Assembly (NCBI GenBank): GCA_031253495.1
Contig: JAIRWC010000015.1
Span: 1-64,000 of the forward strand
DNA length: 64,000 nucleotides
Source of the DNA: Oscillospiraceae bacterium
GTDB taxonomy: Bacteria > Bacillota > Clostridia > Oscillospirales > Ruminococcaceae
Reading direction: 5' to 3'
Shown here: in pieces, positions 8,232-52,424 of the stretch
Numbering within the stretch: the first letter of the stretch is position 1
Layout of the letters: each line of letters opens with the position of its first letter
Position numbers and translations under genes: made by a program
The notes under the pieces: generated by a model
The model's input: the letters and a program-made list of their open reading frames with translations, nothing else
Told to the model about the DNA's origin: nothing
Databases searched by the model: none

Positions 8232-9506
8232 ATGATTCTCAACACCGTAAGGCTTCCGCATTTCAACGCTTCCGCGGACAGAAAAACCGTTAAGCTCCCT
8301 TTGCCGAAAAAGGTGATAATCAGCTTATCGCAGAGCATAGGCGCTTCTTGCGAGCCGATTGTGAAAAAAGGCGACGAGGTGCATACGGGTCAGTTAATCG
8401 GCGACAGCGACGCTTTCGTGTCGGTTCCGGTTCACTCCAGCGTTTCCGGAACCGTCGCGGGAGAGACGGAGGTTTTGAGCGTCAGCGGGAGGTTGAGCCG
8501 CGCCGTCGTCATAAACACCGACCGTCTCCAAAAAAACTGCGAGAGTTTGAAACCGCCGGTTATAGAAAACAAAGAGGATTTTTTAAAGGCCGTCCGCGAC
8601 AGCGGGAGCGTCGGGTTAGGCGGGGCGGGCTTCCCCACCCATGTGAAGCTGTCTTACGATTCCAAAAAAACCCCGGTGGACACGCTTATCATAAACGGCG
8701 CGGAATGTGAACCCTATATCACGAGCGATTATCGCGAAATACTTGAAAACTCGCAGAATATCGCGGACGGGATTAAACTCGTGATGAAACACCTCGAAAT
8801 CCCCTCGGCGATAATAGGCATCGAGCGGGATAAGCCTTTGGCCATCGAACAAATGCGCGAAATTACCGAAAATTACCCCGCCGTAACGGTAAAGCCGCTT
8901 TCCTTGAGTTTTCCGCAGGGCGCGGAAAAAATCCTCATCTACAAAACGACCGGCAGAATAGTCAAAGAAGACGAAAGACCATATTCGGCGGGGTGCCTTG
9001 TGCTTAACATTTCCACCGTCGCGTTTATCGCCGAATACATAAAGACGGGCATACCGATGATTAAGCGGCGTATTACCATCGACGGCGACATAGTCAACAA
9101 GGCCGTGAACGTCAGCGCCCCGATAGGCGCGACGCTTTCCGAACTGTTGCGGAGCGCCGACGCGAGGATTATTCCGGACAGAATAATATTCGGCGGGCCC
9201 ATGATGGGCGTCTGCGTTTACGAACCCGAAACGCCGATAAGCAAAACCACGAGCGCGCTGCTCCTTTTCGGGAACTCCAAATTGAAAAAGGAAAGCGCGT
9301 GTATTCGTTGCGGGAAATGTATAAGCTCATGTTCGATGAACCTTTCCCCCGTCGAGATAAACAAAGCCTACGACGCTTCCGACAAAGCCCTTTTGAAAAA
9401 ACTCCGCGTCGGTCTTTGCATGAACTGCGGCTCATGCTCTTACGTCTGCCCGGCGAAGCGGAATATTTCCGAAAAAAACCAGCTGGCCAAACAAATCGTA
9501 AAATAG
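8232..9506 (+). CDS. rnfC: Rnf complex subunit C
   Basis: RnfC is the peripheral NADH/FMN- and Fe-S-binding subunit of the Rnf ferredoxin:NAD+ oxidoreductase, which couples electron transfer to Na+ or H+ export. The 424-residue protein has GLGGAGFPTHVKLS, the conserved NADH/FMN loop, and two [4Fe-4S] motifs near the C-terminus, CIRCGKCISSCSMNLSP and CMNCGSCSYVCP. It lacks the long C-terminal extension seen in proteobacterial RnfC. It opens a six-gene operon in the clostridial order C-D-G-E-A-B. Confidence 0.95.
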   Translation: MILNTVRLPHFNASADRKTVKLPLPKKVIISLSQSIGASCEPIVKKGDEVHTGQLIGDSDAFVSVPVHSSVSGTVAGETEVLSVSGRLSRAVVINTDRLQKNCESLKPPVIENKEDFLKAVRDSGSVGLGGAGFPTHVKLSYDSKKTPVDTLIINGAECEPYITSDYREILENSQNIADGIKLVMKHLEIPSAIIGIERDKPLAIEQMREITENYPAVTVKPLSLSFPQGAEKILIYKTTGRIVKEDERPYSAGCLVLNISTVAFIAEYIKTGIPMIKRRITIDGDIVNKAVNVSAPIGATLSELLRSADARIIPDRIIFGGPMMGVCVYEPETPISKTTSALLLFGNSKLKKESACIRCGKCISSCSMNLSPVEINKAYDASDKALLKKLRVGLCMNCGSCSYVCPAKRNISEKNQLAKQIVK

Positions 9507-9543
9507 GCGCGAACCGCGCCGATTTTAAAAAGGACGTTAAAAC

Positions 9544-10461
9544 ATGAACAAACTCATCGTAGCTCCCGCCCCTCACATACGGACGCGCAATTCCACCCGG
9601 CGTATAATGCTCCACGTCATAATAGCGTTAATGCCCGCGTTCGTCGCCGCCGCAATCATTTTCGGCCCTCGCGCGGCGGTCGTAACGGTCGTCTGCGTCG
9701 CCTCGTGCGTTTTTTTTGAATATTTTTTCCGCGCGGCCGTAAAAAAAGAGCAGACCGTTTCCGACCTTTCCGCGGTAGTGACGGGGATGCTCCTCGCTTT
9801 TAACCTGCCCGTCACGATGCCGCTTTACATGGTGGTAATCGGCGCGTTCATAGCAATTGTCGTGGTGAAGCAGATGTTCGGCGGAATAGGGCAGAATTTC
9901 GCCAACCCCGCCATCGTGGCGAGGATAGCGCTTATGATGTCGTTCAGCCCCCAAATGTCGAGCTGGGTCAAGCCCTTTTATTACAGACTCGGCGGCGCCG
10001 ACGCCGTAACCGTCGCCTCCCCGCTGGCGGCGGACGCCCCCCCGGATTTAAAGGATTTGTTTTTCGGGATAAACGCGGGTTCACTCGGGGAAACCTGCGC
10101 TTTCGCCCTGTTGCTCGGCTTCGTTTACCTTTTGGCGGCGAGGGTAATCCGCCCCGCGACGCCCGCGGCGTTTGTCGGCGTATTCGCGGCGGCGACGTTT
10201 TTCGCGGGCGGCGACGTATTGGCGGGCGTCCTTTCCGGCGGGCTTTTGCTGGGGGCGATTTTTATGGCGACGGACTACGCGACGACGCCTTTGACCCCCC
10301 TCGGGAAAATCATTTTCGGCACGGGATGCGGGCTGATAACCTTTATAATCAGGCAGTTCGGCACAATGCCGGAAGGGGTTTCGTTCTCGATTTTGATTAT
10401 GAACATACTGACGCCCTACATCGACAAGCTGACCCGCCCGAAGCCGTTCGGCGCCGTGTAA
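9544..10461 (+). CDS. rnfD: Rnf complex subunit D
   Basis: This 305-residue membrane subunit has about ten hydrophobic helices and belongs to the NqrB/RnfD family, which normally carries a covalently bound FMN. In the usual attachment motif, where other RnfD proteins have ATPL with a flavinylated threonine, this protein reads DAVTVASPLA, so Ser159 occupies that position. The C-terminal half contains TDYATTPLTPLGKIIFG, another family signature. It lies 37 bases after rnfC and overlaps nothing downstream; rnfG begins 11 bases later. Function in the first Rnf complex is very likely. Confidence 0.93.
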   Translation: MNKLIVAPAPHIRTRNSTRRIMLHVIIALMPAFVAAAIIFGPRAAVVTVVCVASCVFFEYFFRAAVKKEQTVSDLSAVVTGMLLAFNLPVTMPLYMVVIGAFIAIVVVKQMFGGIGQNFANPAIVARIALMMSFSPQMSSWVKPFYYRLGGADAVTVASPLAADAPPDLKDLFFGINAGSLGETCAFALLLGFVYLLAARVIRPATPAAFVGVFAAATFFAGGDVLAGVLSGGLLLGAIFMATDYATTPLTPLGKIIFGTGCGLITFIIRQFGTMPEGVSFSILIMNILTPYIDKLTRPKPFGAV

Positions 10462-10472
10462 AGGAGAACGCC

Positions 10473-11120
10473 GTGAGCAAAAAAATCAAAGAAAAGCCCG
10501 TTTCCCCGGACGGCGGCGCCGGTTCTTCAAGCGAAGGCAAGAAGGCGGTTTCATTGAGTTTCGGGCAATTCAAACCCGCGATTGTCCTTTCCGTAACAAT
10601 CGCGCTGGTCGGCGCCGTCCTCATTGTGTGCGTCGGCCTCATTCCCGACACGTCGGGCGTTATAACCGAAAAACTTTCGGGAAAATGCGCGGAGCTTATG
10701 GGCGAGGGCGAATTTGAGCTTATCGCCGACTGGGAGGGCGCGGGATACAAAATCCCCAAACCTAAAGAAGTGGCGAAGCTAATCCGCAAAGACGACGGGA
10801 GCGTGGCTTTTGAAATTATCACAAGCGGCTTTAACAGGAACTCTCTCGATTTGCTTATAGCCATGAACGCGGACGGGAGCGTGCGCGGCGTGGCCGTCGT
10901 TTCTATTACCGAATCCCCGAAACAAAGCAAAGAAGTCGCCGCGCCGGAATTTCTCGGCAGATTCAAAGGGAAAAGCGGGAAAATCGCCGTCGTCGGCGGA
11001 AATCCGGAATCCGACGGCGAGGTGGAGCGGATTACGGGCGCGACCGTGTCGTCCAAAGCCATAGCCAAGGCGGTCAATATCGCGATTGAAACCTATTCGG
11101 AAATGGGGGCGCTTGAATAA
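10473..11120 (+). CDS. rnfG: Rnf complex subunit G
   Basis: RnfG is the extracytoplasmic flavoprotein anchored by one helix, here about residues 32-52. The FMN attachment motif ITGATVSS is intact, with Thr191 as the predicted phosphothreonyl-type linkage site. The true start is GTG at 10473, because AAGGAG lies at 10461-10466. A longer frame reaching back to 10326 would sit inside rnfD. The product is 215 residues. The gene ends with TAATG-type overlap into rnfE. An ApbE flavin transferase is needed but is not in this window. Confidence 0.92.
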   Translation: MSKKIKEKPVSPDGGAGSSSEGKKAVSLSFGQFKPAIVLSVTIALVGAVLIVCVGLIPDTSGVITEKLSGKCAELMGEGEFELIADWEGAGYKIPKPKEVAKLIRKDDGSVAFEIITSGFNRNSLDLLIAMNADGSVRGVAVVSITESPKQSKEVAAPEFLGRFKGKSGKIAVVGGNPESDGEVERITGATVSSKAIAKAVNIAIETYSEMGALE

Positions 11121-11788
11121 TGAGCTGTCTTAAAACGTTCTTAAACGGAATAATCAAAGAAAATCCCGTCCTCGTCATGCTTCTCGGAACGTGCCCGACC
11201 CTCGCCGTAACCACGACGGCCGCGAACGGCTTGGGCATGGGCATAACCACGATGTTCGCGCTCGTTTTCTCGAACGTCGCCATATCGCTGCTCAAAGGCC
11301 TTATTCCGAGGCAGGTGCGCCTCCCCTGCTATATAGTGATTGTGGCGGGGTTTGTAACCTTTTTGTCGTTTATGCTGCAAATCATCCCCTGGCTTTATTG
11401 GCTTTATGAAAGTTTGGGGCTGTTTTTGCCGCTCATCGCGGTTAACTGCATTATATTCGAGAGAGCCGAAGCGTTCGCGTCGAAGAACAACCCGTTCATA
11501 TCCTTAATCGACGGCTTGGGCATGGGGGCGGGGTTCACGCTCGCGCTTTTTGTAATGGGTTCCGCGCGTGAAATTCTCGGCTCCGGCAGTTGGATGGGGT
11601 TAAAAATTCCCATGGGTGAAATTTCGCCGATGATGATATTCGGATTGCCGGCCGGCGGGTTTTTCATGTACGGAATTATTATAGCGTTCGTCGGCAAAAT
11701 CACGAAAAAGCCCCCCCGCGCCATAGGATGCGAGGGATGCCCGTCAAGGGGCGTCTGCAAAGATTTCGCCAAAGGGGGGGATAACTGA
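11120..11788 (+). CDS. rnfE: Rnf complex subunit E
   Basis: A six-helix membrane subunit of 222 residues, one half of the RnfA/RnfE pair that shares an intramembrane [2Fe-2S] cluster. Both cluster cysteines are present: Cys25 in LLGTCPTLAV and Cys110 in IAVNCIIFE. The C-terminus carries a short cysteine-containing tail (CEGCPSRGVC) that is not typical of the fold and could bind metal. Start and stop overlap both neighbours, indicating coupled translation. Confidence 0.94.
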   Translation: MSCLKTFLNGIIKENPVLVMLLGTCPTLAVTTTAANGLGMGITTMFALVFSNVAISLLKGLIPRQVRLPCYIVIVAGFVTFLSFMLQIIPWLYWLYESLGLFLPLIAVNCIIFERAEAFASKNNPFISLIDGLGMGAGFTLALFVMGSAREILGSGSWMGLKIPMGEISPMMIFGLPAGGFFMYGIIIAFVGKITKKPPRAIGCEGCPSRGVCKDFAKGGDN

Positions 11789-12375
11789 TGGAAATAGCGC
11801 AAAAATTGCTTTTTATCTTAGTCGCGGAAGTGTTTATCGAAAATTTCGTGCTGACTAAATTCCTCGGGATATGCCCGTTCCTCGGCGTTTCAAAGAAAAT
11901 TTCAAGCTCTTTGAGCATGGGGCTCGCGGTAATGGCGGTGATGGTTTGCGCCGCGATTTTCACCTATCCCGTCTATACCTTTGTTCTCGTCCCGCTGAAT
12001 ATCGCTTACATGAACACGATTATGTTCATACTGATAATCGCCCTGTTCGTCCAAATCATGGAAATGGCGCTGAAAAAATACTTCTCCCCCCTGTATAAAG
12101 CCCTCGGCGTTTATCTGCCGCTCATAACCACGAACTGTGCCATATTGGGCGTAACGCTGCTCAACGTCAACAACGAATACGGCTTTTTGCTGTCGGTGTT
12201 CAACTCGTTTTGCGCGGGCTTGGGCTTCCTCATGGTTATGCTGATTTTTTCGGGGATACGGGAACGGGTGGAGCGCAGCGACGTTCCCGAATCGTTGAAA
12301 GGCACGCCTATCACGCTTATCGCCGCCGCGATAGTGTCGCTGTCCTTTATCGGGTTCGGCGGAATGGCGGGATAA
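11788..12375 (+). CDS. rnfA: Rnf complex subunit A
   Basis: This 195-residue, six-helix integral subunit is the inverted-topology partner of RnfE. Cys29 in FLGICPFLGV and Cys117 in TTNCAILG are the expected ligands of the shared [2Fe-2S] cluster. It overlaps rnfE by one base. It is a useful reference for the second RnfA-like gene at 48.9 kb, which has the same length but lacks the first cysteine. Confidence 0.95.
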   Translation: MEIAQKLLFILVAEVFIENFVLTKFLGICPFLGVSKKISSSLSMGLAVMAVMVCAAIFTYPVYTFVLVPLNIAYMNTIMFILIIALFVQIMEMALKKYFSPLYKALGVYLPLITTNCAILGVTLLNVNNEYGFLLSVFNSFCAGLGFLMVMLIFSGIRERVERSDVPESLKGTPITLIAAAIVSLSFIGFGGMAG

Positions 12376-12390
12376 CCCCCGCTGTTTTCC

Positions 12391-13230
12391 GTGAAAAAGA
12401 AAATGAAAAAAGGATTTATCGCCATGTTCACTTATGTGCTGCCCGTCGCTTTTTTTATAATAATCGGTTTCGCGTCGGGGATAGTCTTGACGGTCGCCGG
12501 GCGCGTCTTCGAGGTTAAGACCGACAACACCGTCAAAAAGCTGTTGGAATGTCTTCCGGAAATCAACTGCGGCGCCTGCGGCTTTCCGGGTTGCGAACAG
12601 TACGCCGCCGCCGTGGCGGCGGAAAACGCCGCCCCGAATCAATGCAAGCCCGGCGGCGAAAAGACCGCCGCCCAAATCGGCGAGGTTTTGGGGATATCCG
12701 TTTCGGCGGGCGAGCCGGAGGTCGCTTTCGTCCGCTGTTCCGGTTCCAGCTCGGAGAAATACGTCTACGCGGGGACGGAAAGCTGCGTCGCTTCCGAAAT
12801 GTATTACAACGGGAAGGAAGACTGCCGCTTCGGTTGCGTGGGGCTGGGCGACTGCGTAAGGGCGTGCCCTAACGGCGCGCTTCACATTGTGGACAGGCGC
12901 GCCGTCGTTACCCCCGTTAAGTGCATAGCCTGCGGTCTGTGCGTCAAAGCCTGCCCGCAAAAGCTGATTACGCTCCAAAAAAGCAGCCGGCTCGTAAACG
13001 TCTTGTGCGGTTCCAAAGACGCGGCGAAGATAACGAAAGCCGCCTGTAAAAGCGGCTGTCTCGGGTGTAGGATATGCGAGAAAAAATGCCCGAAAGAGGC
13101 TATAACCGTCAAGGACAACCTCGCGGTAATAAACGCGGATTTATGCGACAGCTGCGGGAAATGCGCCGTCGCGTGCCCCGTTATGTGCATAACGGTCAGC
13201 GGCGGTTGCGCGAGGAAAACGCAAAATTAA
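12391..13230 (+). CDS. rnfB: Rnf complex subunit B
   Basis: RnfB is the ferredoxin-facing Fe-S subunit. A single N-terminal helix (about 10-30) precedes the NCGACGFPGC cluster motif. Four further cysteine motifs follow: CRFGCVGLGDCVRACP, CIACGLCVKACP, CKSGCLGCRICEKKCP and CDSCGKCAVACP. This is the multi-cluster clostridial form, at 279 residues. It ends the operon, 15 bases after rnfA. Together the six genes encode a complete energy-conserving complex. Confidence 0.94.
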   Translation: MKKKMKKGFIAMFTYVLPVAFFIIIGFASGIVLTVAGRVFEVKTDNTVKKLLECLPEINCGACGFPGCEQYAAAVAAENAAPNQCKPGGEKTAAQIGEVLGISVSAGEPEVAFVRCSGSSSEKYVYAGTESCVASEMYYNGKEDCRFGCVGLGDCVRACPNGALHIVDRRAVVTPVKCIACGLCVKACPQKLITLQKSSRLVNVLCGSKDAAKITKAACKSGCLGCRICEKKCPKEAITVKDNLAVINADLCDSCGKCAVACPVMCITVSGGCARKTQN

Positions 13231-47629: not shown

Positions 47630-48847
47630 TCACTTTGTCATATAATTTTCATATCCCATTTTCAAAAACGCGGAAATAACTTTCCCGACGTCGCTTTCGG
47701 ATAACCCCGAAACGTCCGCGCAGGGGATGATTTCAAGCTCCCCCGTTTGCTTTTCCGCCTTTTCAAACACGCTCCTGACAAGCTCCGTCAGTTCCTCCGG
47801 CGTCGGAACCTCCCCGCCGGTGGCTTCCGCCGCCTTTTCGGCGCGGCTGAATATCAAGACCGCCCCCGCCGCCGAAAACGAGCTTCCGGCGCGGAGGATT
47901 TCGGCTGTTTTCACCGGACCGCCGCCGCTTATAACGTCGCCCGCCGACATTTCGATATAAATGTTTACGCCGGGCGATTTTTCCGCCGCTTTGTTCACAA
48001 AATCCGCCAAAGCGGAAAACCTCGTTTTTTCGTCGGTATCCCGCCGGGAAAGTATGGTCAGGTCGTATTTCCTGAAATCGGGGAACACCACGTTCGCGTA
48101 GATGACGTCGCCGAACCCCGCCTCGTAAAGTTCGGCGGTTATGTCCGAGATATAATCCGCCGTTCCCTGCAAGAACGGGTTTGCCCAAAACTTGCCGCCG
48201 TTTTCCGGTCTGTCGTCCAGCCAGGCGGAATTCCCGTCGGCGAACCTGTACGACACGTCTTTTATTTTAGCGGGCGCGAGCCGGTCTTTAAGCGTGTTTA
48301 TCCTTGCGATGGGCCTAATCCCCGCGTTTGAGAAACTTTCGGCGATTTGCTTCGCCGTGAGCGTCCCCGCGATTATATCCCCGTCGCCCGCCACGGCGGC
48401 GACGCCGCTTTTATAAAGCAGCCTCCCGTCTTCGTCCTTGAGCTCCACCACGACCGCGTCATACCCTTCGGACTTGGCTTCCTCGATGAACGCCGAAAGC
48501 GAGGTGGGGCTTGAAAGGACGTTCAAGCGGGCGTAAACGGTCTTGCCTAAGGATTTATAAGGCGGCGGCTCCGCGTCCGACCCGGATTCGGAAACGCCGG
48601 GCGTTTCGCCGCTTTCCCCCGTAACGCCGCCGCTCGTCGCGGTCGGCGCGCTTTCGGTAACGTCGCCGCCGCCTTGCGGCCTTTCATAATTGAACACGGT
48701 CGCCGCGATTGTATAACCGACGAAACACAGCCCCGCGACGGCCGCCGCCGTGACGGCAAATTCAACTATCGTCCTGAACCGGCTTTTTTGATTTTTATAG
48801 AGGTTTTTTGAACGCTTGATTTTCTTCCCGTAACCGCGTTTTGACAT
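47630..48847 (-). CDS. DUF4015 putative glycoside hydrolase-like protein
   Basis: This 405-residue protein has a basic N-terminus, a membrane helix at about 29-51, a Ser/Thr/Pro/Glu linker and a DUF4015 TIM-barrel domain. Family signs are VYARLNVLSSP, YDAVVVELKDEDGRLLY, GIRPIARINTLKDRL, and ENGGKFWANPFLQGTADYISDI (in part). DUF4015 proteins are predicted sugar-acting hydrolases of the cell surface; activity is unproven. It follows the RnfA-like gene by 22 bases, so it is probably cotranscribed with the degenerate Rnf-like cluster. Confidence 0.82.
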   Translation of the reverse strand: MSKRGYGKKIKRSKNLYKNQKSRFRTIVEFAVTAAAVAGLCFVGYTIAATVFNYERPQGGGDVTESAPTATSGGVTGESGETPGVSESGSDAEPPPYKSLGKTVYARLNVLSSPTSLSAFIEEAKSEGYDAVVVELKDEDGRLLYKSGVAAVAGDGDIIAGTLTAKQIAESFSNAGIRPIARINTLKDRLAPAKIKDVSYRFADGNSAWLDDRPENGGKFWANPFLQGTADYISDITAELYEAGFGDVIYANVVFPDFRKYDLTILSRRDTDEKTRFSALADFVNKAAEKSPGVNIYIEMSAGDVISGGGPVKTAEILRAGSSFSAAGAVLIFSRAEKAAEATGGEVPTPEELTELVRSVFEKAEKQTGELEIIPCADVSGLSESDVGKVISAFLKMGYENYMTK

Positions 48848-48869: not shown

Positions 48870-49457
48870 TCAAGCGGACGCCGAATACCCGACAAACGCG
48901 TGCAACGCCAACGAAAGGATGCCTATGTAGATTACCATTATCGGCATACCCCTAAAAACGGACGGCACCAGCTCGCTGTTAAGGCGCGTGTGCGCCACGT
49001 AAAGCAGATACCCCGCCGCTAAGAACCCCAAGCCCGTTCCGAAACCGTATCCCAGATAACCCCATATGTCCGCCCCCGACCGCGAACCTATGAACAGCGC
49101 CCCCAATACCGCGCAGTTAAACACCGCGAGATGGGCGAATTTCTTTATTTTTCTGAAAAGGTTATGGAAAAAACGCCATACCGCAATCAGGCTCGATATG
49201 TATATTACGCCGATAACCAGTATATAAAGGACGGGCGATATTACCGCGTAACGCTCATGGTTCCCGAAAGCGCCGTCCAGCGCCCACACCGCGATTGAGG
49301 ACAGCGTGGTTATATAGCACAAGCCCAAGGCGAACCCGATTACGCTCGAGCGTTTGCGCGCCGCGTAAAGCAGTATGTTTATCCCGAGGGCGCGCTCGAA
49401 AATCGAGTTTTGCAGAAAAACGGCAAGCAAAGCCGCCGATACGAAATTAGCCAGCAC
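48870..49457 (-). CDS. RnfA-like membrane protein lacking a cluster cysteine
   Basis: At 195 residues it matches the length and six-helix pattern of the real RnfA at 11.8 kb. I start it at GTG 49457 with AGGAGG nine to ten bases upstream; a longer frame runs back into the E-like gene. In place of LGIC the protein reads LGIN, so the first [2Fe-2S] cysteine is Asn27. The second, FNCAVLG (Cys115), is kept. It is the third gene of a D-E-A cluster. Confidence 0.8.
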   Translation of the reverse strand: MLANFVSAALLAVFLQNSIFERALGINILLYAARKRSSVIGFALGLCYITTLSSIAVWALDGAFGNHERYAVISPVLYILVIGVIYISSLIAVWRFFHNLFRKIKKFAHLAVFNCAVLGALFIGSRSGADIWGYLGYGFGTGLGFLAAGYLLYVAHTRLNSELVPSVFRGMPIMVIYIGILSLALHAFVGYSASA

Positions 49458-49459
49458 AG

Positions 49460-50116
49460 TCAGATTACCTCCTCGATAAATTCCCGCCGCCGTTTTTCCC
49501 TTTCGGCTTTTTCGGCTTTTTTCCTTTTTGAGCGGTTGTAAAAGGCGCGGCACATCCCCGCCAGCGCCCCCGTGATAATCAGCCCCCCGAACGTGGTCTC
49601 AAAAGCCGGCACGAAAAACCCGGCGCTTAAGTTCATCCAGCCCACCCTGCCGTTCACCAGAACGTCGCGCAGGGTTCCGACGAAGACGCACACGACGTCA
49701 AATCCGACGATATATCCCAAAAGCTCGACCATCATCAAATGCGGCGGGCGAAGGCAAAACCTCGTTTCGGTCTTAGCGAGAATGAGCGGGTTCACCGCCA
49801 AAACGGGCAGGTATAAACCGAGGCTCGCCGTAACGTCTTCCCCGAATACGGCGTCAATCAGGAGACGCGCGGGAATATAGCTGAGCCCCGCTATCAGCGC
49901 GTAAATTATCACCCTGATGGTGTATATGATTTTTTTGGGAACGAACCTGCATACCAAAACGCCGAGGAACGCGATAACCGTAAACCCCATGCCGAGCGCT
50001 AAGCTCTTTTCAAAGTTCGTGGCGCAGGCGGCGACCGGGGCGATGGCCACCCCGCTCATCAAAACGACGTTTTGCCTAATCAAACCGTCCGAAAGCCGCC
50101 GTTTGTCATTTTCCAT
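49460..50116 (-). CDS. RnfE-like membrane protein lacking both cluster cysteines
   Basis: This 218-residue relative of RnfE has six predicted helices. Aligned to the RnfE at 11.1 kb, Cys25 corresponds to Ala26 (VAIAPVAA) and Cys110 to Pro110 (LAVNPLIL). It therefore cannot hold the intramembrane [2Fe-2S] cluster of active Rnf. The ATG at 50116 overlaps the D-like gene's end; the frame upstream to 50152 is not conserved. The basic C-terminal tail (RSKRKKAEKAEREKRRR) is longer than in RnfE1. Confidence 0.8.
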   Translation of the reverse strand: MENDKRRLSDGLIRQNVVLMSGVAIAPVAACATNFEKSLALGMGFTVIAFLGVLVCRFVPKKIIYTIRVIIYALIAGLSYIPARLLIDAVFGEDVTASLGLYLPVLAVNPLILAKTETRFCLRPPHLMMVELLGYIVGFDVVCVFVGTLRDVLVNGRVGWMNLSAGFFVPAFETTFGGLIITGALAGMCRAFYNRSKRKKAEKAEREKRRREFIEEVI

Positions 50117-51617
50117 CCTTCGCGCCCTCCGGTTTTTCCGGGGCTTCGGCAAATTCCGCGCCGCCGCCCGCCTTTTCTTCCTCGTCGATAATTTCCGGCT
50201 CCTCCTCTTTTTCAGAAGCGCCTATCACCACCACGTCGTCGTCGTCAAGCATCAAGGACAGCCTGAGCGGGGTCAAGTCGGTCTCCGGCTCCGGCGTTTC
50301 GGGAATTTCCTCTTTTTTCTTGAACGCGTCCCCTAATTCCTTCACCCCTTCGCGTAAATTCTCGAAAAAGTTTATGTCCGGCTTTTCCTTCTTTTCCTCT
50401 TCGTTTAATTTCCTTTTTTCCGCCGCCATGCCGATTTTTTCCCTTAACCGCGCCGTCAGCCCCTGCTTTTTCCTGTTTATTCTGGTTACTTTGCCGTCAA
50501 TCGGCGGCATATTATAATTTTGGCGGACAATCATTATTTCCTGCGTGTCTGAAAGTCCCGGGCGCATCTTCGCCTCGTTTTCCGTCTTTGCCCTCTCGCG
50601 TATGGTCTCGTAAGAGTTCAGCCTGTTCTTGACGAAAACCGCCGCGTGTTTTATTCCGCTGATTGTTTGCCCCGCCAAAATATCGGAACGCTCGGTCATG
50701 GTGTTTACGAAAAGCAGCGCGAACGCGGGCGACCCGTCCACTTTCCCGAACTTCCCAAAAAACGCCGCGGCAAGACCGAAAAGCGCGCCGTAATAAATTT
50801 TCCCCAAAAACGTTTTCGGGAGGGTTTGCGGGTCGTTGGCGAGGAATATCAGTATAAACAAAAAATATCCCGAAACCAGCATCATGAGCAAGGGCCCGGC
50901 AATTCCGCCGCCCGGCGCCAAAACCCCCGAAAACAGACCGCTCGCGAAAAGCGCGGAAAGCGTTACGGTCGGCGACGCCGAACGCCTTATCATAAGGCAG
51001 ACCGCGCAGACCAAAAGCACCAGTATATGCACCGTGCCCATCGCCCCGGCGAAATTCCCCGTGAGAATGTCGAACGGCTCGATTACCCGGTTTTTGTCGA
51101 AACTTGAAAACGCGACGGAATCAATCCCGCCGAAAACGGGGAGGTGTTCGCGCGGTTTCGGGAACATCAGCATTTTCCCGGGGTAGCATATGACAAGGAA
51201 AGCGAAAGCCACGGCGGTCGGGTTGAATATATAGTTGTCCTTGCCGCCGAAAATGTGTTTAATCCCTATCGTCAGCGCCGAACCGGAAAACGCCATAAAA
51301 TAGCTTATTCCCGCCGGCATGAGCAAGGCGACGCACATCCCCGCCGTTACCGTGGAAAGGTCTTTGGGGTTGTACGTTTTTTTGGAAAGGGCGCAGCCCG
51401 CCATATCCATCAACACCGCGCCCAACACCGAAACCGCCGTCATCACGAGAACGCGGGGACCGCCGCTCCAAAACGCGATAACAACGAGAGAGCAAAGGCA
51501 TAAAAGCTGTTCGGAATAAATCTGCGACGGTTTTATTCCCCTTTTTACGCCTTTGCTTTCCGATTTTGAGGCGGCTTCACCGTCATAATCGAACTTTTCT
51601 ATTATATCTTTGTCCAT
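50106..51617 (-). CDS. RnfD/NqrB-like membrane protein with long charged C-terminal extension
   Basis: This 503-residue protein has an N-terminal about 330 residues like RnfD/NqrB (DLSTVTAGMCVALLMPAGISY, FGGKDNYIFNPTAVAFAFLVICYPGKM, in part). The flavin motif is replaced by DSVAFSSFDKNRV, without ATPL. Then comes about 165 residues of charged, low-complexity sequence (KLNEEEKKEKPD, PETPEPETDL, LDDDDVVVIGASEKEEEPE). No C, G or B partner is nearby. It heads a D-E-A-DUF4015 run on the minus strand. Confidence 0.8.
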   Translation of the reverse strand: MDKDIIEKFDYDGEAASKSESKGVKRGIKPSQIYSEQLLCLCSLVVIAFWSGGPRVLVMTAVSVLGAVLMDMAGCALSKKTYNPKDLSTVTAGMCVALLMPAGISYFMAFSGSALTIGIKHIFGGKDNYIFNPTAVAFAFLVICYPGKMLMFPKPREHLPVFGGIDSVAFSSFDKNRVIEPFDILTGNFAGAMGTVHILVLLVCAVCLMIRRSASPTVTLSALFASGLFSGVLAPGGGIAGPLLMMLVSGYFLFILIFLANDPQTLPKTFLGKIYYGALFGLAAAFFGKFGKVDGSPAFALLFVNTMTERSDILAGQTISGIKHAAVFVKNRLNSYETIRERAKTENEAKMRPGLSDTQEIMIVRQNYNMPPIDGKVTRINRKKQGLTARLREKIGMAAEKRKLNEEEKKEKPDINFFENLREGVKELGDAFKKKEEIPETPEPETDLTPLRLSLMLDDDDVVVIGASEKEEEPEIIDEEEKAGGGAEFAEAPEKPEGAKDGK

Positions 51618-51673: not shown

Positions 51674-51703
51674 AAAATGAAAACTCCCGGGAGTTTTCGT
51701 TTT
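51674..51703. terminator. Terminator after rpe
   Basis: A near-perfect palindrome centred on CCCGGG with a 12- to 13-bp stem, flanked by T tracts on both strands, at the rpe stop codon. It separates rpe from the RnfD-like gene downstream on the minus strand. Confidence 0.75.
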
Positions 51704-52352
51704 AAAAGGGTTTCCGCAACTCGTCGACGGCTTTCGCCATATCCGGCGAAGCGAACAGATGAGTTCCGGCGGTGAGGATGTTCGCGCCCGCCTTAACGGC
51801 GGACGGAGCGGTTTTTTCGTTTATTCCGCCGTCAACCTGTATATCGGTGTTCAAGCCCCTTTCTCTCACCGCCGCGCGGAGCGCGGCGATTTTGCCGAGC
51901 GTTTCGGGAATAAAACTCTGCCCCCCGTAACCCGGCTCCACCGACATCACGAGGAACATATCCGCCAAACCGATGAAAGGGAACGCCTCTTCGGCGTCCG
52001 TTTCGGGGCTTAACGCCAATCCGGCCTTTATGCCCAAGTCCTTGATTTTTTTCAGCGTTCCCGCGATATCGCAGTCGCTTTCGGCGTGAACGGAAATTAT
52101 ATCGCTCCCCGCCGCCGCGAAGAACGGAACGACCCTTTCCGGCTCGATAACCATCAAATGCGTGTCAAAGGTCAAAAAACTCTTCTTCCTTAACGACCGG
52201 ATTACAATGTCGCCCATGGTCATCGGCGGCACGAAAATACCGTCCATAACGTCAATGTGGAGGAAATCCGCCCCCGCCTGTTCCGCCCTGTTCACTTCCT
52301 CGCCGAGCGCGGCAAGGTCCGAATTTAATATCGACGCTGAAATTTTAATCAT
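51702..52352 (-). CDS. rpe: Ribulose-phosphate 3-epimerase
   Basis: This 216-residue enzyme interconverts ribulose 5-phosphate and xylulose 5-phosphate in the pentose phosphate pathway. It opens IKISASILNSDLAALGEE and has FLHIDVMDGIFVPPMTMG, FDTHLMV, SVHAESD, VMSVEPGYGGQSF and DGGINEKTA, all canonical active-site motifs. The start is ATG 52352; the frame extends to a TTG at 52403 without family similarity. It has a good own promoter. Confidence 0.95.
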   Translation of the reverse strand: MIKISASILNSDLAALGEEVNRAEQAGADFLHIDVMDGIFVPPMTMGDIVIRSLRKKSFLTFDTHLMVIEPERVVPFFAAAGSDIISVHAESDCDIAGTLKKIKDLGIKAGLALSPETDAEEAFPFIGLADMFLVMSVEPGYGGQSFIPETLGKIAALRAAVRERGLNTDIQVDGGINEKTAPSAVKAGANILTAGTHLFASPDMAKAVDELRKPF

Positions 52353-52424
52353 TTTTACGGCAATACCGCCTTTCTCGCGTTTTTGGAATTTGCCCCGCGG
52401 CAAAAAATAATTTCCTTCGTTACC

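Follow-up and report, generated by a model that had tools for sequence, protein, structure and literature searches.

We describe a set of three genes descended from the Rnf complex in a 64,000-nucleotide stretch of an Oscillospiraceae bacterium genome (assembly GCA_031253495.1, contig JAIRWC010000015.1, positions 1 to 64,000; this whole stretch is called the window below). As the initial annotation of this DNA had reported, and as Pfam and NCBIfam profiles agree, the window holds a complete rnfCDGEAB operon and, 36 kb from it, a separate set (51617-48870, minus strand) that encodes only proteins resembling RnfD, RnfE and RnfA (pD, pE and pA); of the six Rnf subunits, C, G and B are missing from this locus. 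Comparison of the sequences makes us highly confident that the D-E-A set, here together with a DUF4015 gene, is an old and selectively maintained operon of Rnf descent, in which G, B, the [2Fe-2S] ligands and the covalent flavin mononucleotide (FMN) site have been lost. The window's lineage is also without C. The view that these genes form a maintained paralogue set and not a decaying one is upheld by a core order shared among 108 distinct loci, by ratios of nonsynonymous to synonymous substitution (dN/dS) of 0.02-0.15 in the listed pairs, and by their position on one side of the tree; recurrence in so many loci also rules out an oddity of this window.

Loss of the redox-center ligands

The cofactor-site columns were fixed by phmmer alignment to solved Rnf chains. 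In pA, GIC of RnfA reads GIN, and TTNC reads VFNC with its cysteine kept; in pE, GMC of RnfE reads AIA and VNC reads VNP. One of the four [2Fe-2S] cysteines is left in the D-E-A set, against four of four in the intact operon of the same window, and the earlier claim that three are replaced (by Asn in A and by Ala and Pro in E) is borne out by these columns. The cysteine that was said to remain in A (Cys115) is indeed present in the window; as a conserved feature it does not stand, since the column (RnfA Cys113 in Acetobacterium woodii numbering) has Cys in 73 of the 108 related loci. That the cysteines were shifted but present, which the initial annotation had named as an alternative, was checked by alignment and is not the case: another Cys lies within 7 residues of the site in only 1 (A29), 4 (E25) and 4 (E110) of 29 clusters. 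A Cys five residues past the E25 site is common, though not universal, in the window's genus, and 32 of 106 loci carry a Cys at 7 residues or less from that site.

The FMN threonine is absent from pD, and the Asn and Asp equivalent to the A. woodii RnfD riboflavin contacts N123 and D249 are present. Among relatives, the FMN Thr of D is found in 5 of 103 paralogues versus 17 of 17 intact copies, although this loop cannot be aligned with certainty. The earlier statement that D lacks an ATPL-type flavin motif therefore holds as far as the Thr is concerned, whereas ATPL itself is not a fully reliable standard, since the intact RnfD of the window (9544-10461, plus strand) reads VASPL, with Ser at the FMN-Thr site; Rnf copies of genus relatives have Thr there in 20 of 20 fetched. 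The source genome has one ApbE match.

Recurrence in relatives

Our first sample comprised 60 genomes, the source genome included. Of the 35 further genomes that belong to the genus, all but one encode an orthologue of pA (34 genomes, 43-69% identity); the remaining one, G023, has a low-scoring Rnf-Nqr match at a contig end. Those 34 loci read rpe-D-E-A-DUF4015, apart from absences near contig ends (rpe twice, D and DUF4015 once each). To widen the sample, 394 genomes of the order were searched by profile, named genomes were scanned (best 80 of 142) and further loci were fetched. In the named-genome scan, these best 80 were mostly Oscillospiraceae, Ruminiclostridium and Clostridia metagenome-assembled genomes (MAGs), some of them rumen, termite-type or rabbit bins; Merdimmobilis hominis An559 (NCBI family Oscillospiraceae) was also among them. 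The sources include many MAGs, and the family codes used below (f1, f5 and so on) are those of the analysis tool. With identical A proteins counted once, 125 distinct loci remained, of which 108 lack the cluster ligands (Cys-less loci) and 17 were classed as intact. Gaps were excluded from the site counts, and the counts for D and for E omit loci in which that gene was not usable.

The recurrence of the same cysteine losses in homologues, which had been proposed as a check, was seen throughout: across the 106 loci in which A and E could both be read, none of the four cysteines is kept in 34, one in 71 and two in 1, so that no locus exceeds two of four. RnfA Cys25 is kept in 0/107, RnfE Cys25 in 2/105 and RnfE Cys108 in 0/106 (A. 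woodii numbering), whereas the loci classed as intact have Cys in 17/17 at each of these columns. RnfD Glu185 (numbering of PMC9588780) is likewise kept in none of the 103 paralogues. As a paired control, Rnf copies from the same genus keep four of four cysteines in 20/20 (20 of 32 second matches were fetched).

Gene content follows the same division. Profiles found G or B in 0 of the 108 Cys-less loci and an rnfC-like gene in 6, with more in loci fetched later. Among the 17 loci classed as intact, C, G and B are all present in 15, and one contig (L211) is cut before B. The last, L069 (genome G036, 140-2654), has D, a short open reading frame (ORF) at the G position, E and A with four cysteines, no B, and unrelated genes afterward; it is an exception to the pattern in which loci without G or B also lack the cysteines, and is probably a broken operon copy. 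G036 carries a full Rnf operon besides it. Within the Cys-less loci, D and E lie on the same strand in 104/104 and E and A in 106/106, with median gaps of -4 and -1 nucleotides when measured from the first possible starts.

Cys-less sets were seen in f1, f5 and f24, and also in f7 (G041), f15 (G072, G049) and f23 (G057). The f7 set has C and DUF4015, and rpe was not seen in the 3.5 kb upstream; the contig of G049 holds only A and DUF4015. In the f7 locus (L385, Cys-less C-D-E-A-DUF4015), E is 505 residues long, with about 300 extra N-terminal residues that have no match over the Pfam cut-off. Thirty-eight of 42 f1 genomes carry a Cys-less set (G169 and G412 by score alone), three have intact Rnf only (G066, G129, G181) and one has neither (G315). 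A class-wide search of 391 genomes gave, among the best 30 loci, 8 Cys-less loci, all within the order, and 22 loci outside the order, all with four cysteines. Judged from these 30 loci, the Cys-less family looks confined to this order. One further search for relatives gave 36 matches, of which 30 were fetched as loci.

Most genomes with a Cys-less set also hold a true Rnf. Two drafts, G033 (96% complete) and G003 (82%), have only a Cys-less A/E pair; neither shows an RnfC_N match or a second Rnf-Nqr pair. Among the open-licence PubMed Central (PMC) matches listed, no title or abstract described a Cys-less RnfA/E, a D-E-A operon or an Rnf-linked DUF4015 protein.

Selection and origin

Between close orthologues, A gives a dN/dS of 0.018-0.090, E one of 0.039-0.154 and D one of 0.052-0.131. 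These values are for 14 listed pairs per gene, out of 124 (A), 46 (E) and 91 (D) pairs with dS below 1.5, and the pairs are not independent. In trees of concatenated D, E and A, the Cys-less, mostly rpe-linked sets stand on one side of a branch and Rnf on the other, with branch supports of 100/100 (30 versus 16 rows) and 100 (32 versus 21 rows). The A protein has also gained new, widely kept residues (Thr77 to Pro, Val88 to Tyr and Thr115 to Phe, and Pro111 to His in the window's clade). The loss of catalytic ligands is what one would expect of a decaying duplicate of Rnf; the low dN/dS in the listed pairs, a gene order kept over many genera and these newly kept residues speak against decay, which we regard as refuted and give hardly any credence.

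Structure of the window locus

The source genome comprises 1.67 Mb in 45 contigs, and the window is its contig 31. A profile search of the genome gave four Rnf-Nqr matches, all inside the window and two per locus, which rules out a single Rnf split over two places. The features concerned are as follows.

50106..51617, minus strand: pD, RnfD/NqrB-like membrane protein, 503 residues, with a long C-terminal tail (Pfam PF03116, 163.6 bits)
49460..50116, minus strand: pE, RnfE-like membrane protein, Cys25 to Ala and Cys110 to Pro in window RnfE numbering (PF02508; phmmer to 7zc6_E)
48870..49457, minus strand: pA, RnfA-like membrane protein, 195 residues, Cys29 to Asn and Cys117 kept in window RnfA numbering (PF02508; phmmer to 9eri_A)
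47630..48847, minus strand: DUF4015 protein (PF13200, 80.1 bits), 22 bases past pA
51702..52403, minus strand: rpe, ribulose-phosphate 3-epimerase, upstream neighbor, conserved beside Cys-less sets
8232..13230, plus strand: intact rnfCDGEAB operon, order C-D-G-E-A-B, all four cysteines present, used as internal control

The D-E-A set matches PF02508 twice (pE 70.4 bits, pA 78.6 bits) and PF03116 once, above the Pfam cut-offs, and misses the NCBIfam rnf cut-offs widely (rnfA 62.4 versus 229.3, rnfE 50.1 versus 213.4 and rnfD 87.2 versus 207.05 bits). The initial annotation rightly took the frames to be intact, with ribosome binding sites and coupled starts. The pD frame runs from 51617 to 50106, and the pE ATG at 50116 gives an 11-base overlap with it; the TTG at 50152, the start chosen by the ORF lister, is not the likely start. 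The pA gene starts with a GTG at 49457, preceded by GAGGAGG and just past the pE stop, and the DUF4015 gene with an ATG at 48847, preceded by GGGAGAG. From these coupled starts and the spacing of 22 bases, we count the DUF4015 gene as a member of the D-E-A operon on sequence grounds; the initial annotation had noted neither this membership nor the place of DUF4015 genes after rnfB in some other Rnf operons. A scan for promoters and terminators gave 7 versus 3.5 and 13 versus 11.8 expected, and is not used as evidence.

Upstream, rpe is present in 102 of the 108 Cys-less loci, and the other 6 end at contig ends; it marks the locus and is not a likely partner. In 15 of the 29 cluster representatives, rpe and the D-E-A set are separated by a MecA-family gene on the opposite strand. 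Apart from rpe, MecA and DUF4015, every neighbor family found occurs in at most 4 of these 29, and yajC, which was scored separately, lies near the window set and many genus loci. The tail of pD carries a motif, DTQEI...YNMPPID, that is present in 23 of 104 D paralogues and is perhaps a docking motif.

Retained riboflavin contacts and RnfC-like proteins

Since B, G, the cluster and the covalent FMN are gone, the electron path of Rnf (B to the A/E cluster, then G, D and C) cannot run through D-E-A. The initial annotation had accordingly called the set non-redox. This holds for the [2Fe-2S] ligands and the covalent-FMN Thr; that the set is wholly non-redox is not borne out, because riboflavin contacts and some C-like proteins persist. 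The D249 column of the D paralogues has 82 Asp and 17 Glu among 104, and the N123 column has Asn in 76 of 103. Mutation of these RnfD residues abolishes Rnf activity in A. woodii (PMC11889175). Six RnfC-like proteins could be aligned, and in them both [4Fe-4S] motifs (CxxCxxCxxxC) are kept, the last Pro being changed in one. The C-bearing loci are scattered among deeper branches, and this makes an ancestral C probable, with at least 2-3 later losses.

These observations would fit a slimmed-down redox module, in which D would bind riboflavin and the RnfC-like protein would pass electrons between its two [4Fe-4S] clusters and the riboflavin on the cytosolic side, for signaling or to drive a conformational change; in lineages without C, another cytosolic partner would replace it, perhaps bound by the tail of D. 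In agreement with this idea, the two D residues persist together in 11 of 13 C-bearing loci versus 12 of 25 loci lacking C (p 0.04 if the rows were independent). However, the association rests on 2-3 independent changes, as does any link between loss of C and retention of RnfE Glu115, for which there are likewise 2-3 independent contrasts. Moreover, the Gly-rich FMN loop and the NGAECEPY motif are gone from the same six RnfC-like proteins, the scores of L202 and L215 for the Pfam FMN domain stay under its cut-off, and no known route across the membrane is left. We consider such a redox module improbable, with somewhat more than a fifth of our belief.

The DUF4015 protein

By a crude hydropathy count, the window DUF4015 protein has one N-terminal hydrophobic segment, followed by a glycosidase-like PF13200 domain with a profile match to PDB 4s1a (E 1.6e-19). 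It resembles the putative DUF4015 glycosidases in this domain and in its solved relative, and differs from them in the hydrophobic segment and in its Rnf-type operon. All 27 operon-linked members scanned match PF13200. The Asp of the 4s1a motif FDYIRFP, whose catalytic role is our assumption, is Ala in the window member and is kept in 1 of the 27 operon-linked members aligned; it also varies in Rnf-linked and free-standing DUF4015 proteins.

A DUF4015 gene is present in 102 of the 108 Cys-less loci; of the other six, five end at contig ends and one (L215) is truly without it. Where A and DUF4015 both occur they share a strand (102/102), at a median gap of 37 nucleotides. In six genomes of four families (G037, G036, G061, G113, G045 and G038; loci L210, L218, L220, L364/L389, L387 and L388), rnfB too is followed directly by a DUF4015 gene, at gaps of 7-312 bases. 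In five of the six (L210, L218, L220, L387, L388), A and E could be read and have four cysteines, and the G036 contig holds only B. In 12 other loci whose contigs extend far enough past rnfB to show it, no such gene was found, nor does one follow the window rnfB, where a transglutaminase-like gene stands. Its position after rnfB in some Rnf operons suggests that DUF4015 was a neighbor of Rnf before the Cys-less split.

The close association of DUF4015 with D-E-A could mean that D-E-A transports nothing and acts as a scaffold or regulatory pseudo-complex, which would hold DUF4015 or another partner at the membrane or would modulate Rnf assembly. The frequency and spacing of the DUF4015 gene and its occurrence after rnfB point this way, and with the FDYIRFP Asp absent in 26 of the 27 aligned members, the DUF4015 protein may itself only bind. 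On the other hand, polar residues in the A/E core are still under selection, several f24 loci have no DUF4015 gene beside A, and modulation of Rnf is disfavored by the two drafts, G033 and G003, that lack both an RnfC_N match and a second Rnf-Nqr pair. We put a scaffold at about one chance in four.

A possible ion or solute carrier

In our tentative best explanation, which we hold at not quite an even chance, a maintained Rnf-derived module without an electron path is combined with an A/E pair that passes an ion or solute. Movement of an ion or small solute by D-E-A is the mechanism that we prefer, and taken by itself it is a possibility to which we lend slightly less weight. The A/E pair would form and open to either side without an electron, so that an ion or small solute could pass; D would be the membrane partner of this pair, and the DUF4015 protein, where present, would be docked outside near the place of RnfG. 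Formation of the complex, its substrate and the direction of movement are all our conjecture. Sodium ion transport by alternating access has been argued for RnfA/E (PMC11889175), and the half-helix core has been likened to sodium/solute symporters (PMC12174285). Because RnfA/E has been described as an alternating-access unit in these papers, we favor a cofactor-free carrier over a riboflavin-type module and over a scaffold. The G033 draft, with its Cys-less A/E pair and no RnfC_N match, indicates that the set can occur without Rnf, and together with G003 it argues against a role as Rnf subunits. A fuller history, in which a redox pump core was converted once, long ago, into a cofactor-free secondary carrier, mostly with an extracytoplasmic DUF4015 protein that is also an accessory of some true Rnf complexes in the order, is rather doubtful in our view, at a little under one chance in three.

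Several residues named at the sodium path or gate of RnfA/E (PMC11889175) are retained: RnfA Asn112 in 108/108, RnfE Arg67 in 103/105, Asn107 in 99/106 and Glu115 in 95/106. The five RnfE ion-path columns are also better kept than other near-invariant RnfE columns (0.74 versus 0.34, p 0.009).

A number of observations weigh against carriage of an ion or solute. Taken together, all 12 ion-path columns are not kept above background (0.46 versus 0.36, p 0.18). RnfA Gln85, Thr110 and Thr111 are replaced, as mostly is Pro107, which became His in 94 of 108 loci by one gain in the window's clade; Thr111, which adjoins the cluster, is Phe in 99 of the 108 Cys-less loci, and this Phe may fill the emptied cluster site. 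The acid at window RnfA position 92, which we read from the alignment as NqrE Glu95, is kept in 0 of 29 clusters, and mutation of NqrE Glu95 stops sodium pumping in Nqr (PMC10643135). In A. woodii, an E115A strain matched the wild type in growth and an N107A strain did so in part (PMC11889175), so that retention of Glu115 and Asn107 is weak evidence; Glu115 is kept in only 1 of 13 loci that still have C. The retained Asn and Arg residues may be structural rather than part of an ion path, and in a locus read later (L313), RnfA Asn112 is lost too. Finally, DUF4015 is not obligatory, with none beside A in L215, L315-L318 and L320-L322 (the latter seven in f24).

Related systems and other second copies

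Along most of each chain, the D, E and A proteins are homologous to their counterparts in Rnf, which has Nqr as a cousin, and the D-(G)-E-A order is shared. Unlike Rnf, the Cys-less set lacks G, B, usually C, the full [2Fe-2S] ligands and the FMN Thr, and usually has DUF4015 added. Flavinylation systems of the Nqr/Rnf type are likewise reduced derivatives with an NqrB/RnfD-like subunit that lacks the flavinylated Thr. They are two-gene electron exporters, an RnfD-like protein with an NAD-binding domain and an FMN-bind protein, and are described in the available portions of the two papers as being without A or E (PMC8238504, PMC11334425), whereas the Cys-less set keeps both. Neither the window set nor the L181 set has a match to the NAD-binding PF00175 or the FMN-bind PF04205. 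NqrB is said to resemble urea and ammonium channels closely (PMC10643135), which raises the possibility that a cofactor-free D could be channel-like; the window set has no Pfam match to a urea or ammonium channel at E 0.01.

Two to four cluster cysteines are missing from five other second copies (L307, L310, L311, L323 and L324), all of which retain C, a G-type gene and the FMN Thr of D; in the tree they lie on the side of Rnf. Those of G281 and G395 (L323, L324) read C-D-G-E-A, with all four [2Fe-2S] cysteines replaced, the FMN Thr and an FMN-bind G kept, and no clear B; by their gene content they could be one-way electron exporters. Those of G053, G219 and G161 (L307, L310, L311) read C-D-G-E-A-B, with two or three cluster cysteines lost. 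A single origin of all Cys-less A/E copies was rejected by the approximately unbiased (AU) test (p 0.013; quick tree, 28 rows, simple model). Because these five copies do not form one clade with the rpe-linked set, the cluster was probably lost more than once. Two further loci, L308 (G359) and L309 (G353), have C, a long D and A, with no E by profile, and the L308 D carries an FMN-bind domain as a fusion. One table in PMC13188914 includes a PF02508 protein (NADH:ubiquinone oxidoreductase subunit E) in selenoprotein form, and cluster ligands may therefore vary elsewhere too.

Significance

The sodium route in Rnf and Nqr is disputed, being placed in RnfD/NqrB (PMC9588780, PMC10643135) or in RnfA/E (PMC11889175). 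A maintained A-E-D core with neither the cluster nor the covalent flavin is a natural experiment on what the core does when no electron passes. This study also flags DUF4015 as an Rnf-linked protein. In gut Oscillospiraceae, matches to genes of the Rnf family need not mean energy conservation.

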